In this document: positions 162 through 39,150 of the stretch, in pieces | How the letters are laid out: the number at the start of each line of letters is the position of its first letter | Numbering within the stretch: the stretch's first letter is position 1 | Assembly: GCA_020442165.1 (NCBI GenBank) | Contig: JAGRKV010000051.1 | Location: 124,001-188,000, forward strand | Origin: Hyphomicrobiaceae bacterium | GTDB lineage: Bacteria; Pseudomonadota; Alphaproteobacteria; Rhizobiales; Hyphomicrobiaceae | DNA: 64,000 bases | Direction of reading: 5' to 3' | Made by a program: the position numbers and the translations under genes | Notes under the pieces: model-generated | Told to the model about the DNA's origin: nothing | Database searches by the model: none | Seen by the model: the letters and a program-made list of their open reading frames with translations, nothing else

Positions 162-1901
162 ATGTCGATTGATACCGCCGGCAACAAGTCGGGCAATGCG
201 CGCGTGCGCCTCACTCACGTCGGCACCTCCGCTGTCTTGACGAAGAGGCGTGCCTGGATCGTTGCGGCGGCGATCCTGGTCGCGATGGGGCTCTATTTCT
301 ATCGTCACGAGGGGTGGCCCGCGAACATCGCCTTTACGATGTCTATAACAGCGCTGCTGGTTGCAACTGTCGCATTTGTTTCCCGGCGCGCGCTGTTCGC
401 AACAGCAATTATTGCGGCGGCCGTTGCGGTCATCGTCATCGCGGCCACGATCAAGTTCCGCTACATCGGCATGGTGCTGCATGCCTATGATCTGGCGTTC
501 TATCTGCTCTCGCCCGATACGCTTTGGTATTTGTGGATCGATTTCCGCTGGGAATTGATCGCGCTTGGCGTGGCTATAGTGGCGATCGTAGCGGGAAGCG
601 TCCTGCTTTATCGTGCCGATCCGACGCGCGTGTCGCGGCCGGTTGCGGCGGGCGCCATCGCGGTGTTGCTGTTGACGGGTGTTGTGGCGGATCGACTGCG
701 TGGCGAGCGGCCGCATCTTCTTTTCTATTGGGATGCGCTGTTTGTCTCGTCGTTCTATTCATCATGGGCAGAGACGGCGGTTACGCTTTGGCGCGGTCAG
801 ATGATCGAGGCCGCCGCCTACGAGCCGGGTGAAAGGCTTTTCAATCAGCCGCTCGGCTGTCCTGTTCGCGAGCGTCCACCGCACATCATCCTGATCCACC
901 AGGAGAGCGTCGTCCCGCCGAGTATTTATCCGGAGATCGCCTACGACCACAGCATTGATCCGCTGTTCCGTTCGGGCGATGGCAGCGTGCGCAAACTGAG
1001 GACGGAGACCTTCGGCGGAGCGTCATGGCTCACCGAGTTTTCAGTGCTCGCAGGTGTTTCCACCTATTCCTTCGGTGGCATGCGCACGTTCGTACAGTCG
1101 ATGATGCAGGGCAAGGTCAAGGATAGCGTGCCGCAGGAGCTGGCGCGCTGCGGCTATCAGAACGTGATGTTCTATCCAGTGCCCAAGCACTTCGTGTCGA
1201 GTGGCAAGTTCTATGCCTCGATTGGCTTTCCCGAGATCAACGACTTCAAGGCACAGGGATCGACACGCTACAACGAGCGTGACCGGTTCTATTACGGCAA
1301 CGTGCTCAACCGGATGGACAAGCACTTCGCCAACTCTCGCGCCCCCCTGTTCACGTTCGTGCTCACCTCGGCGACGCACCTGCCCTATACCCAGCCTCAC
1401 AGTCCGGAAGAGAATGTACCTGGTGGACTGGAGGGGACCGACCCGGAGATGCATGAGTATCTCCGGCGGCTTTCACTGGCGCGCATCGACCTGGAGTGGT
1501 TCCGGTCCGAACTGAAGAGCCGCTTTCCCGATGAGCGTTTCCTGATCGTGCAATATGGCGACCATCAACCGATCGTGACGCGGCCACTGCTTGGTTTCGG
1601 CAAGACCGTGGAAACGCACAACATGGTGATGCCCCCCGATTCAAAAGCCTTTCTTACCTACTATGCGGCGGAAGGGATCAACTACAGGGTGCCGGCACTG
1701 CCTGACGTGGAAACACTCGATGTCCCTTATCTCGGCACACTGATGCTGAAGCTGGCGGGGCTGCCCCTGTCCGAGGCCGGGGAAGAGCGCTTGCGGTTGA
1801 TGCAGCGCTGCGGTGGTGCCTACTATCTCTGCTCGCATCCAGAGGAAATTCTGGCGTTCCATCGACGGTTGATAGATTCAGGACTCCTGGAGGCGCGTTA
1901 G
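162..1901 (+). CDS. LTA-synthase-like sulfatase-family membrane protein
   Basis: Probable membrane-anchored transferase or hydrolase of the alkaline phosphatase/sulfatase superfamily (579 aa). About five hydrophobic helices lie in residues 27-180, followed by a periplasmic catalytic domain. The domain shows HQES near its start, the segment [10 protein letters not shown] where LtaS-type enzymes carry their catalytic Thr, and YGDHQP, the Asp-His metal pair typical of LtaS/sulfatase folds. In the family such proteins move phosphoglycerol or related groups onto envelope polymers; the substrate here cannot be told. Its stop codon coincides with the left end of a dispersed repeat. Function beyond the superfamily is inference. 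Confidence 0.75.
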
Positions 1902-2051
1902 ATCGTTTCAGACTTGGGTCGAAACGATCCGGTTCTTATCGCCCACGCAGCTGATCCTCGCCGGCACTTGGGCTGCGCCGCAAGGTGGCGCATGGCGCTG
2001 GGCCGCAGTTGCGTCCTTAACGAATTCGCCTTGGCGGCAATCGCTTCCTAG
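1901..2051 (+). repeat. Dispersed ~150-bp repeat, copy 1
   Basis: First of three related elements in the window (others near 5.8 kb and 39.0 kb). It starts at the G of the upstream TAG stop. The left end is a perfect 9-bp inverted repeat, GATCGTTTC ... GAAACGATC, with an 11-bp loop. The right end is a hairpin of the form CGAATTCG ... CGGCAATCG, less perfect than in the other copies, ending CCTAG. The GC-rich centre contains a shared ctgggccgcag-like stretch. No open reading frame of its own. Resembles a small non-autonomous palindromic element, but the family is not recognised. Confidence 0.75.
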
Positions 2052-2220
2052 AGCGCGTTCATCTTCGATGGAATCGGGAACGCACTCTATCCTTTTGTTA
2101 TGGCATGTTTTTCCCGCTGAACCGCAACTCACTTCAGCTAGACGTGCCCTAGCGGCTCCAATCGCGGGCCATGCGCGTAGGAACTTGCGCGGGAGGCGGG
2201 CGGGCGATAGAAGCGCGCGC

Positions 2221-4935: not shown

Positions 4936-5760
4936 ATGGCCAATTTCACCACTCACATTGGCGCAGGCACGGTTCAGGCAGGCATTCTTGCAACGCTGAC
5001 GCTGGCAGCGGACGTTGTTGCTCCGGAAAACCTGGTGGCGGTAACGCTTGCCGGTGTGCTCGGCTCGGTGCTGCCAGACATTGATCTGAAGGATTCGCGG
5101 GCGAGCAAGATGATGTTCGCCGGGCTTGGCGTCTTTTCTTCGTTTGTCGTGTTGTTTGCATTCGCAGAGCGCTTATCAGTGGTTGAACTGATGATGCTGT
5201 GGCTCGGCATGCTGGTCGCGGTTCGTTATGGGCTGCACTACCTTTTTCACAGGCTTTCGGTTCACCGGGGTGTCTGGCACTCGCTGCTGGCTGGCGTCTT
5301 CTGGGCTGCTGTCACAGCCATTGTGATGAAGTACATTCTCGGCCGGCATGAAGGGGTTGCATGGCTTGGCGCCGGCTTCCTATTCCTCGGTTACCTCCAG
5401 CACTTGATTCTGGACGAGATCTATTCGGTGGATGTCATGAACCACCGGATCAAGTCGTCGTTCGGGACGGCACTCAAGATCTACGACAGCCGTTATCGCG
5501 CCGCATCTGCCGCCATGGCAGTCGCTGCTGTGGCGGCAATCTTCATGACGCCTTCACCAAAGACTTTCGTTGACGGGATTACTCAGCGGCAGCTTTGGGC
5601 AGGTCTCAACAAGCGCCTGCTGCCCGAAGGCAAATGGTTCGGGGTCTTTGCGCCACCGCAACAGGTGTTGCTGCGTGCGACCGGAGCGGGCCGGCCTGCG
5701 GACATCACCACCGGCACGCTCCCCGATCGGGCTCCCGCTGCCGAGAAGACCAATCCCTAG
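4936..5760 (+). CDS. YdjM-like membrane-bound metal-dependent hydrolase (DUF457)
   Basis: Predicted inner-membrane protein of the YdjM/DUF457 family (274 aa). The N-terminus MANFTTHIGAG carries the family THxxxG start, followed by SVLPDIDLKDSR (the LPDID metal-site motif), then HRLSVHRGVWHSLL (HRGxxHS) and LQHLILDEIYSVD. Together these His/Asp residues form the presumed metal site among four to five helices. The ATG at 4936 has an AGGGAAGGG ribosome site just upstream; the frame stays open further upstream but without conservation. Physiological substrate is unknown for the family. The stop codon abuts repeat copy 2. Confidence 0.8.
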   Translation: MANFTTHIGAGTVQAGILATLTLAADVVAPENLVAVTLAGVLGSVLPDIDLKDSRASKMMFAGLGVFSSFVVLFAFAERLSVVELMMLWLGMLVAVRYGLHYLFHRLSVHRGVWHSLLAGVFWAAVTAIVMKYILGRHEGVAWLGAGFLFLGYLQHLILDEIYSVDVMNHRIKSSFGTALKIYDSRYRAASAAMAVAAVAAIFMTPSPKTFVDGITQRQLWAGLNKRLLPEGKWFGVFAPPQQVLLRATGAGRPADITTGTLPDRAPAAEKTNP

Positions 5761-5909
5761 ATCGTTTCAGACTTACGTTGAAGCGATCCAAATTTCTTCG
5801 CTCACGCAGCTGATCCTCACTATCGCTCGGGCTGCTCCGCGGGGGCGGCGCAAAGCGCCGGGCCGCAGTCGTGGCCTTAGCGATTTCGACTTGGCCGGAA
5901 TCGCTCTAG
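5760..5909 (+). repeat. Dispersed ~150-bp repeat, copy 2
   Basis: Starts on the last base of the upstream TAG stop, as copies 1 and 3 do. The left inverted repeat is GATCGTTTC ... GAAGCGATC (one G-T wobble). The right hairpin is CGATTTCG ... CCGGAATCG, followed by CTCTAG. The element is flanked by CTAG on both sides. The centre, gggctgctccgcgggg and cgccgggccgcag, is closely shared with copy 3. It lies 50 bp from the convergent TetR gene end, so it could serve as a 3' structure for both genes. Confidence 0.8.
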
Positions 5910-36980: not shown

Positions 36981-39005
36981 ATGCGTGCACGGACGTCGGC
37001 GCTGTTGGGCGCTGCAGTGGGTGGTCTTTTTTCCATTGTTTCCAGCAACTTCGAGGTGATCGCCGCTGAGCGGATATGGACGGATCACATCCCGGTTGGC
37101 CGCCCCTACGTGAAGCCCCCGCCGCCCGAGCGCCGCTTGTCGGCCGAGCAATACGCGGCGGCGCAAGTTCCGCCGGTTCTGCCCGCGCTTACGCCTCTCC
37201 CGGCAGACCCCGTGCGTGAAGCGGTCCTACAGGAATTGACGCGGTTGAAGTCGCTGGCAACTGACGACCGGAACAGTGAGCTGATCGATCAGCTCGGTTC
37301 GGCCTATGGCGGGGAAGTGACCGGTCCTTTCTGGATTACGGCAAAGGGCTACAACAAGGCTGCCCATGATGCCGTGGCCGAGATGGCGCGCGCTGGCGAC
37401 TATGCGATGGAGCCAGCGGTCTTTGATATTCCCCAGCTTGATAAAGTTACGGGCGCCGATACTGCCGGACTGGCAGCTGGGGAGGTGCGTATGTCTCTTG
37501 CCGTGATGGCATACGCCCAGGAAGCATTTGGCGCGCGCCTGGCGCCCAACGACATCTCGCTGTGGCTCGATCATAAGCCTGAAGTGCCTGATCCCGCTGA
37601 ACTGCTGCCGCGCGTTGCCAGCGCGCAGGATGCGGCTGCAGAACTCAGGAAACTCAATCCTTCGCATCCGGATTTCGAGGAGCTCCGCAAGGCCTATCTG
37701 GTGGTCACCGGGCGCCGTCAGCAGGATGCTCCCAAGGTGCCGCCGCCAATACCCGAAGGTCCGGTGCTCAAGGTTGGCGACACCGATCCGCAAGTTGCCA
37801 TGGTCCGCGTGCGACTGGATGTGCCGTCGGAGACCGGCAAGGACACCTACTTCGACCGAGAATTAGGAAATGAGATCCGCAACTATCTTCGCCGCAACGG
37901 CAAGTCGCGCCGGCGCGAGATCAATGACGATCTGCGCGCCCTTCTCAATGCGCCGCCGCCGCCGCCTAAAATGCCGGATCTGACGACAATTCAGGCTAAT
38001 ATGCTGCGCTGGCGCTGGATGCCGCGCGATCTGGGTTCGACCCACATCTGGAACAATATTCCCGAGTACGAGACGCGCCTGATTAAGGACGGCACGGTCA
38101 TCCATCGCGAGAGGATCATCGTCGGTCAGCCCGATCAGCAGACACCGATCTTCTCGGACAAGATGGAGCACATCGTGTTCAAGCCCCAGTGGGGCGTGCC
38201 CAATTCGATCAAGATCTCCGATCTGTTACCGAAGCTTCGTAATGGTGACACGAACGTTCTTGAACGCCGGGGCATGAAGATCGTGAAGAATGGTAGGGAG
38301 GTGCCTGCTGAACGCATTCGCTGGTCGTCGGTCGATATCCGCTATCTCAACATCGTGCAGGGGCCGAGCGATTGGAATCCGTTGGGCGAAATGAAGTTCA
38401 TGTTCCCCAATCGGCATTCGGTCTATATGCACGATACAACGTCGCGTCACCTGTTCAGCTCGTCTGAACGTGCCTTTAGCCACGGCTGCATCCGCGTACG
38501 CAACCCCCGCAAGCTCGCCACTGCAATCTTTACAGAAGTGGAAGGCTGGGATGCGGCTCGGATACCTGATTATCTCGGCCGCCGAGCGGAGGAAAACAAC
38601 TCGGTCGATCTCGCCAAGCCAATCCCCGTGCACAACGTCTATTTCACGCTGGTGCCAGATGGGGCCGGAGGTTTTCGCAGGTACCGCGACGTTTATGGTC
38701 ACGACCGGCGGATCGCAGATGCCATTTCGGGCAAGTCGCTGCGCTCGATTGCCAACAATGACCCTGCCCGGATCCACAAGCGGCGCATCGAAGAGATCGA
38801 GCGTTCGACCCGCTATGACAACTCGTCCAATTCGCGGTCTCAGCGCAAGCGCTACGCTGATGGGCAAACCGTTGACGAGAACGGTGAGTTCACCACTTAT
38901 CGCAGCTCACTGGGTGCGGGGTCATCGCGCGCCATAAGGCAGCCGCGGCGCTCGCGCCATGTGGCACCCGCCTGGCCGCCGACGTTTTCTTTCTGGAACG
39001 ACTAG
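36981..39005 (+). CDS. L,D-transpeptidase (YkuD/YcbB type)
   Basis: Periplasmic peptidoglycan crosslinking enzyme (674 aa) with a signal peptide (residues ~1-28), a long N-terminal region, a peptidoglycan-binding-like segment around 260-320 (LKVGDTDPQVAMVRVRL), and a YkuD catalytic domain at ~365-530. The active-site motif is SHGCIRVRNP with catalytic Cys near residue 502, preceded by VYMHDTTSRHLF (His). The C-terminal ~100 residues are basic and low in complexity. Length and layout match alphaproteobacterial YcbB-like proteins that make 3-3 crosslinks. The stop codon coincides with repeat copy 3. Confidence 0.9.
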   Translation: MRARTSALLGAAVGGLFSIVSSNFEVIAAERIWTDHIPVGRPYVKPPPPERRLSAEQYAAAQVPPVLPALTPLPADPVREAVLQELTRLKSLATDDRNSELIDQLGSAYGGEVTGPFWITAKGYNKAAHDAVAEMARAGDYAMEPAVFDIPQLDKVTGADTAGLAAGEVRMSLAVMAYAQEAFGARLAPNDISLWLDHKPEVPDPAELLPRVASAQDAAAELRKLNPSHPDFEELRKAYLVVTGRRQQDAPKVPPPIPEGPVLKVGDTDPQVAMVRVRLDVPSETGKDTYFDRELGNEIRNYLRRNGKSRRREINDDLRALLNAPPPPPKMPDLTTIQANMLRWRWMPRDLGSTHIWNNIPEYETRLIKDGTVIHRERIIVGQPDQQTPIFSDKMEHIVFKPQWGVPNSIKISDLLPKLRNGDTNVLERRGMKIVKNGREVPAERIRWSSVDIRYLNIVQGPSDWNPLGEMKFMFPNRHSVYMHDTTSRHLFSSSERAFSHGCIRVRNPRKLATAIFTEVEGWDAARIPDYLGRRAEENNSVDLAKPIPVHNVYFTLVPDGAGGFRRYRDVYGHDRRIADAISGKSLRSIANNDPARIHKRRIEEIERSTRYDNSSNSRSQRKRYADGQTVDENGEFTTYRSSLGAGSSRAIRQPRRSRHVAPAWPPTFSFWND

Positions 39006-39150
39006 ATCGTTTCGGACTTGGTGTTGAAGCGATCTTGATTCGTTTGCTCACTTTGTGGACCTGGGCCGGTGCTCGGGCTGCTCCGCGGGGCGCGGCGCAA
39101 GGCGCTAGGTCGCGGCCTTGGCGATTCCGCCTTGGTCGGAATCGCTCTAG
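39005..39150 (+). repeat. Dispersed ~150-bp repeat, copy 3
   Basis: Starts on the last base of the TAG stop of the transpeptidase gene. The left end is GATCGTTTC ... GAAGCGATC, and the right hairpin CGATTCCG-ccttggt-CGGAATCG is perfect, ending CTCTAG. CTAG flanks both sides, as in copy 2. The GC-rich core gggctgctccgcgggg is identical to copy 2. Confidence 0.8.

Follow-up and report, generated by a model that had tools for sequence, protein, structure and literature searches.

Copies of the repeat in the window

The window, a stretch of 64,000 nucleotides, belongs to contig C29 of the 4.3-Mb genome of an uncultured alphaproteobacterium, assembled in 89 contigs. Three plus-strand genes of the window, encoding a sulfatase-like protein (positions 162 to 1901, 579 aa), a YdjM-like membrane protein (4936 to 5760, 274 aa) and an L,D-transpeptidase of the YkuD type (37017 to 39005, 662 aa), end with a TAG stop codon (1899-1901, 5758-5760 and 39003-39005, respectively) that overlaps a copy of a repeated element. 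These copies, at 1898-2051, 5757-5909 and 39002-39150, all lie on the plus strand and show the two dyads, the GC-rich core and the terminal CTAG described in the original prediction, and a covariance model search found exactly these three in the window and no further ones. As had been noticed, all three start on the TAG of the plus-strand gene, the start coordinates given earlier being the G of that codon. Copies 2 and 3 are indeed bounded by CTAG at either side, and copy 1 has TTAG at its left and CTAG at its right. Delimited by the TA dinucleotides, the units run from G1901 to C2048, from G5760 to C5906 and from G39005 to C39147.

The left terminal hairpin occupies positions 1901-1929 in copy 1 (GATCGTTTCAGAC...GAAACGATC) and 5760-5788 in copy 2, both on the plus strand, and 0 matches to its dyad pattern are expected by chance. 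The right terminal hairpin lies at 5881-5903 in copy 2 (CGATTTCG...CGGAATCG) and at 39122-39144 in copy 3 (CGATTCCG...CGGAATCG), again on the plus strand. Copy 3 is diverged, with a 6-base gap in its core, and the GATTC and GAATC of its right hairpin constitute two GANTC sites. GANTC is the CcrM methylation motif, and such sites reportedly occur in other alphaproteobacterial long intergenic repeats, judging by the title of a 2003 article by Chen and Shapiro.

Copy 1 abuts a different CTAG-bounded hairpin repeat (2051-2149, plus strand), designated repeat B, with which it shares its TA (2049-2050). Repeat B is dispersed, measures about 97 bp, has YTAG...TAR ends and two hairpins, and gave 54 matches in 1.1 Mb. 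It adjoins the element also at C85:14649, C84:51280 and C81:3660, and partial copies stand in tandem on C60.

A family of 65 to 70 copies

Searching the whole genome yielded approximately 65 to 70 copies, in which both end dyads are conserved. A covariance model built from 36 copies gave about 70 non-overlapping matches; the 65 copies analyzed below are those scoring at least 45 bits with nhmmer. The consensus of 153 bp contains five hairpins (folding z = -4.5 as DNA and -3.1 as RNA), and the median divergence of the copies from it is 8%. The imperfect terminal inverted repeats GATCGTTTCAGAC and GAGCGATTCCGAC are identical at 10 of 13 positions, and each end folds as a hairpin. The element thus has the many similar non-coding copies, defined ends and terminal inverted repeats by which miniature inverted-repeat transposable elements (MITEs) are recognized.

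The full-length element was absent from the 60 relatives searched. The exact pattern of the left hairpin had no match in other species of the genome_contigs collection, from which the window's own genome was possibly left out, and no Rfam family matched the element or its core. Viral contigs and plasmids contained no match to the element either, leaving its spread by phages or plasmids without support.

Boundaries and insertion target

The boundaries are sharp and read YTA|G...C|TAR, conservation being at background from positions 0 and 154 outward. Left ends are mainly CTAG, with some TTAG and CTGG, and right ends are mainly CTAG, with some CTAA. A duplication of a 4-base CTAG target was ruled out, the left and right tetranucleotides varying independently. 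Internal variable sites are mostly common to similar copies, which is not the case for position 153 (G or A; p = 0.998). This last base is not inherited between copies and therefore belongs to the flank, which gives a palindromic target, Y-TA-R, at either end. In the simplest model, TA within CTAG would be duplicated, with the unit extending from G to C. We infer this duplication from the TA flanks on both sides and the YTAR preference across copies, because no empty site was found in a close strain. Nested insertions, considered as natural empty sites, gave none, as copies of the element only abut repeat B. Against a TA-duplicating MITE counts the G found at left position 3 in 10 of 64 copies, which is above ordinary divergence. 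The YTAR target has an experimental precedent in the Brucella insertion sequence (IS) IS711, which duplicates TA at such sites (PMC3163539, PMC2266754).

Stop codons and gene context

The coincidence with stop codons does not hold as a rule: in 24 of the 65 copies genome-wide the TAG stop of a neighbouring gene comes from the element, namely from the left TAG for a co-directional gene in 18 cases and from the right-end CTA for a convergent gene in 6. This proportion (37%) is about double what the available CTAG sites would predict, as 15-20% of the non-coding ones lie at stops (p = 1e-5 to 0.002). The copies are intergenic and tend to lie at the 3' ends of genes, away from promoters, with 37 in convergent, 27 in tandem and 1 in divergent contexts, for 34, 165 and 91 available CTAG sites, respectively.

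The idea that insertion at CTAG or TTAG later supplied the stop codon survives in part. The insertion target is well supported by the boundaries, but the stops themselves seem to have been kept. In two congeners the protein corresponding to the gene upstream of copy 1, identified by synteny, ends at the identical residue, with TGA there and TAG here, and in one congener the stop of the syntenic ortholog of the copy 3 gene comes one codon sooner. As the congeners stop at or near the same place, insertion did not move the stop far from where it had been. Moreover, since the unit begins with G and ends with C, a gene at either end regains its TAG, which is why insertions into stop codons are tolerated. 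Target choice together with this tolerance explains the coincidence, a behaviour already known in kind from the GTAG repetitive extragenic palindromes (REPs), which often provide TAG to flanking ORFs (Di Nocera and colleagues, PMC3733652).

The core and its relatives

The middle of the element (positions ~40-122) consists of CGCTCACG, a lineage-variable hairpin, CTCCGCGGGGGCGGCGC, a loop, GCGCCGGGCCGC, a second loop and GCGGCC. This core forms a family of its own, found in Hyphomicrobiaceae and other Alphaproteobacteria, with 1 to 7 copies in 20 of the 59 other family members tested. There it is often found 0-15 nt past the 3' ends of mRNA, tRNA and signal recognition particle (SRP) RNA genes, pointing in the direction of the gene. 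It was seen 0-14 nt past six stop codons as well as after SRP RNA, and it starts 3 nt after tRNA-Met, tRNA-Ser and tRNA-Phe genes (L170, L179 and L185, from two genera). The position after tRNA genes suggests a role at RNA 3' ends, and from its location just downstream of tRNA, SRP RNA and protein genes the core probably serves as a 3'-end module. Its variable arm retains hairpin potential despite differing sequence (Stouffer z = -7.5, mononucleotide shuffles). A composite layout, with a YTAG hairpin, the core and a hairpin ending in TAR, also exists, with other end sequences, in marine Alphaproteobacteria and in S139, an independent metagenome-assembled genome with 43 core matches, to whose copies the element profile aligns nearly end to end. 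The left end of the S139 copies was considered as a homologue of repeat B, and the similarity was not significant.

These observations on the core favour a 3'-UTR function, the other explanation offered in the original prediction, and with it the reading in which each copy would be selected as a terminator or a stabilizer of mRNA 3' ends. In convergent regions, 27 of 37 copies are also closer to the co-directional gene (p 0.008), the genes having been called by a simple codon-score script with which individual distances may be off. However, covariation, which would be expected of a conserved cis-acting RNA, did not exceed that of shuffled alignments among the copies of the window species; they thus behave like insertions left to drift, not like RNA elements maintained one by one. 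The full form is missing from the relatives, 10 of the 65 copies stand in tandem contexts antisense behind opposite-strand genes, and the orientation tracks replication, not genes (see below). Nor does the element resemble an intrinsic terminator, as no U-tract follows its hairpins: those of the core are followed by TTAA, and the right one by CTCTAG. The 3'-UTR idea holds in part, for the core in relatives, and selection of the element copy by copy as a 3'-UTR signal is improbable.

Orientation along replication

In regions of strong GC skew, 28 of 29 copies point along the G-rich strand, and where the GC skew is weak 29 of 36 follow the TA skew, the skew being measured over 1.1 Mb around the copies and not over a closed chromosome. 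On contigs with several copies, 51 of 53 agree in direction, an agreement reached by 0 of 20,000 shuffles. In these stretches, the fraction of genes on the plus strand varies between 0.12 and 1.00 and bears no visible relation to the orientation of the element, so gene direction is not the explanation. Repeat B has the same orientation as the element in 53 of 54 cases. The leading strand is usually G-rich, and by this rule the plus strand of the element would lie in the lagging-strand template. Such a near-absolute bias is unusual for double-strand cut-and-paste transposition and weighs against the MITE reading. Replication-linked precedents are IS200/IS605, Tn7 and clamp-binding transposases (PMC5371812).

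The terminus (dif) was sought on C3, the one contig with mixed orientations, and was not found. The contigs of the genome (L010-L049, L102-L116) fall into two skew classes, with absolute GC skews of about 0.07 and about 0, and the repeat is present in both. These classes possibly represent origin- and terminus-side halves, or two replicons.

In S139 the association has the opposite sign, with 3 of 17 contigs in agreement (two-sided binomial p ~0.013), and in two further genomes copies on one contig disagree in direction. The replication-strand rule is thus strong in the window genome, and S139 and the mixed genomes do not show it to be general. Near-perfect strand polarity in two repeat families would also fit a non-mobile polar DNA signal, such as a chromosome-organizing motif selected to point along replication. 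The sharp YTA/TAR boundaries, the divergence among copies with its inherited variants, the species-level expansion and the 3'-end location are, on the contrary, transposition-like, and together with the opposite sign in S139 they make a signal of this kind highly implausible.

Candidate transposases

No RAYT gene was detected in the genome, so the association that defines REPINs and RAYTs is missing. The one Y1 transposase is of the IS200 type (L009, C35:119-580), encoded beside a PhyR-like response regulator gene, and was rejected as the mover, its ends being unrelated to those of the element. An IS630-type MITE was likewise dismissed, as the genome contains no IS630 transposase (DDE_3). Two IS427-like ISs (PF13340; L157 and L158, at C78:150 and C7:3947) have GGGTCCGGACCC ends and YTA...TAR flanks; their target fits, but their ends differ. 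No IS with the terminal repeats of the element was found in the assembly. S139 has matches to neither a Y1 gene nor the IS427 type (PF13340), and among the genomes with composite elements Y1 is missing in the hosts of S139, L101 and L088 and present in two. The autonomous partner may have been lost or may lie outside the assembly, of which about 4% is missing.

A conceivable, if doubtful, alternative is a REPIN-like element that moves as single-stranded DNA, carried by an HUH enzyme (Y1/RAYT or IS200/IS605) on the lagging-strand template and inserted 3' of YTRG, the cut falling inside YTA-R. It would account for the hairpins at both ends and for an outer YT[AG]G that resembles the GT[AG]G of REPs (PMC6006769), for a replication-strand orientation as strict as that of IS200/IS605 (PMC5371812), and for the TAG given to flanking ORFs, as GTAG REPs often do (PMC3733652). 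Yet the sole Y1 transposase has unrelated ends, S139 combines more than 40 core copies with no Y1, and the base following the right end comes from the target and is biased towards R, which suggests a two-sided target. In addition, Alphaproteobacteria such as the Rhizobiales are stated to carry no or few such genes (PMC6006769).

Discussion

We consider the element to be, with fair probability, a non-autonomous mobile element, namely a MITE of the Rhizobiales palindromic-repeat kind (RIME/Bru-RS/REPIN). An enzyme absent from the assembly would insert it into YTAR sites, CTAG for the most part, and TA would be duplicated in the process. Where the target is the C-TA-R of a stop codon, the G...C unit would restore TAG on either side, so that these sites tolerate insertion. 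Coupling of insertion to replication, with the plus strand in the lagging-strand template, would fix the orientation. The middle ~85 bp may be a captured 3'-end module, terminator-like or protecting RNA ends, which would render landing behind a gene harmless or even useful.

A bolder proposal, which we hold only tentatively, is that the two unrelated CTAG-bounded families are inserted by one strictly replication-coupled enzyme, which is neither a RAYT/IS200 enzyme nor that of a resident IS, and that one of them has taken up and multiplied a 3'-end module that is widespread in Alphaproteobacteria. If so, the ends of leading-strand genes would gain a ready-made stop codon together with a 3' structure. 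Small palindromic repeats are abundant in many bacterial genomes, yet little is known of what moves them and by which rules. With an almost absolute replication-strand rule in two families and a target rule that makes stop codons safe to land on, ideas on the spread of such repeats can be put to a concrete test. The findings also connect a mobile repeat with a structured module retained by relatives immediately behind tRNA and protein genes.

Comparison with known repeats

Among the closest known systems are RIME and the Brucella Bru-RS1/2, palindromic, intergenic, multi-copy repeats of ~100 bp in Rhizobiales. The function of RIMEs (Rhizobium-specific intergenic mosaic elements) is unknown (PMC2573895), and Bru-RS repeats have been linked to IS711, a YTAR inserter (PMC3163539, PMC2266754). 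Compared by description and not by sequence, the element differs from them by its succession of end hairpin, conserved core and end hairpin and by its replication-strand orientation. With REPs and REPINs mobilized by RAYTs it has in common end hairpins with an outer tetranucleotide, the inverted pair, the 3'-end location and the provision of TAG to neighbouring ORFs (PMC3733652). However, the tetranucleotide is YTRG (YT[AG]G), GT[AG]G or CGTC being absent from the hairpin foot, an 85-bp core separates the hairpins, and the genome lacks a RAYT.

IS711/IS427-type ISs and their MITEs show the same YTAR target with TA duplication and the same boundary layout, but the terminal repeat of the IS427-like ISs, GGGTCCGGACCC, is unlike GATCGTTTCAGAC of the element, and IS711 inserts in both orientations (PMC2266754), whereas the element is oriented. 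IS200/IS605 share hairpin ends and an orientation matching replication, but they have a fixed right-end tetranucleotide, in contrast to the target-derived last base of the element, and no matching enzyme is present. The element thus belongs to a known kind, that of mobile palindromic intergenic repeats or MITEs, and its most notable features are its strict orientation rule and its probably captured 3'-end core.
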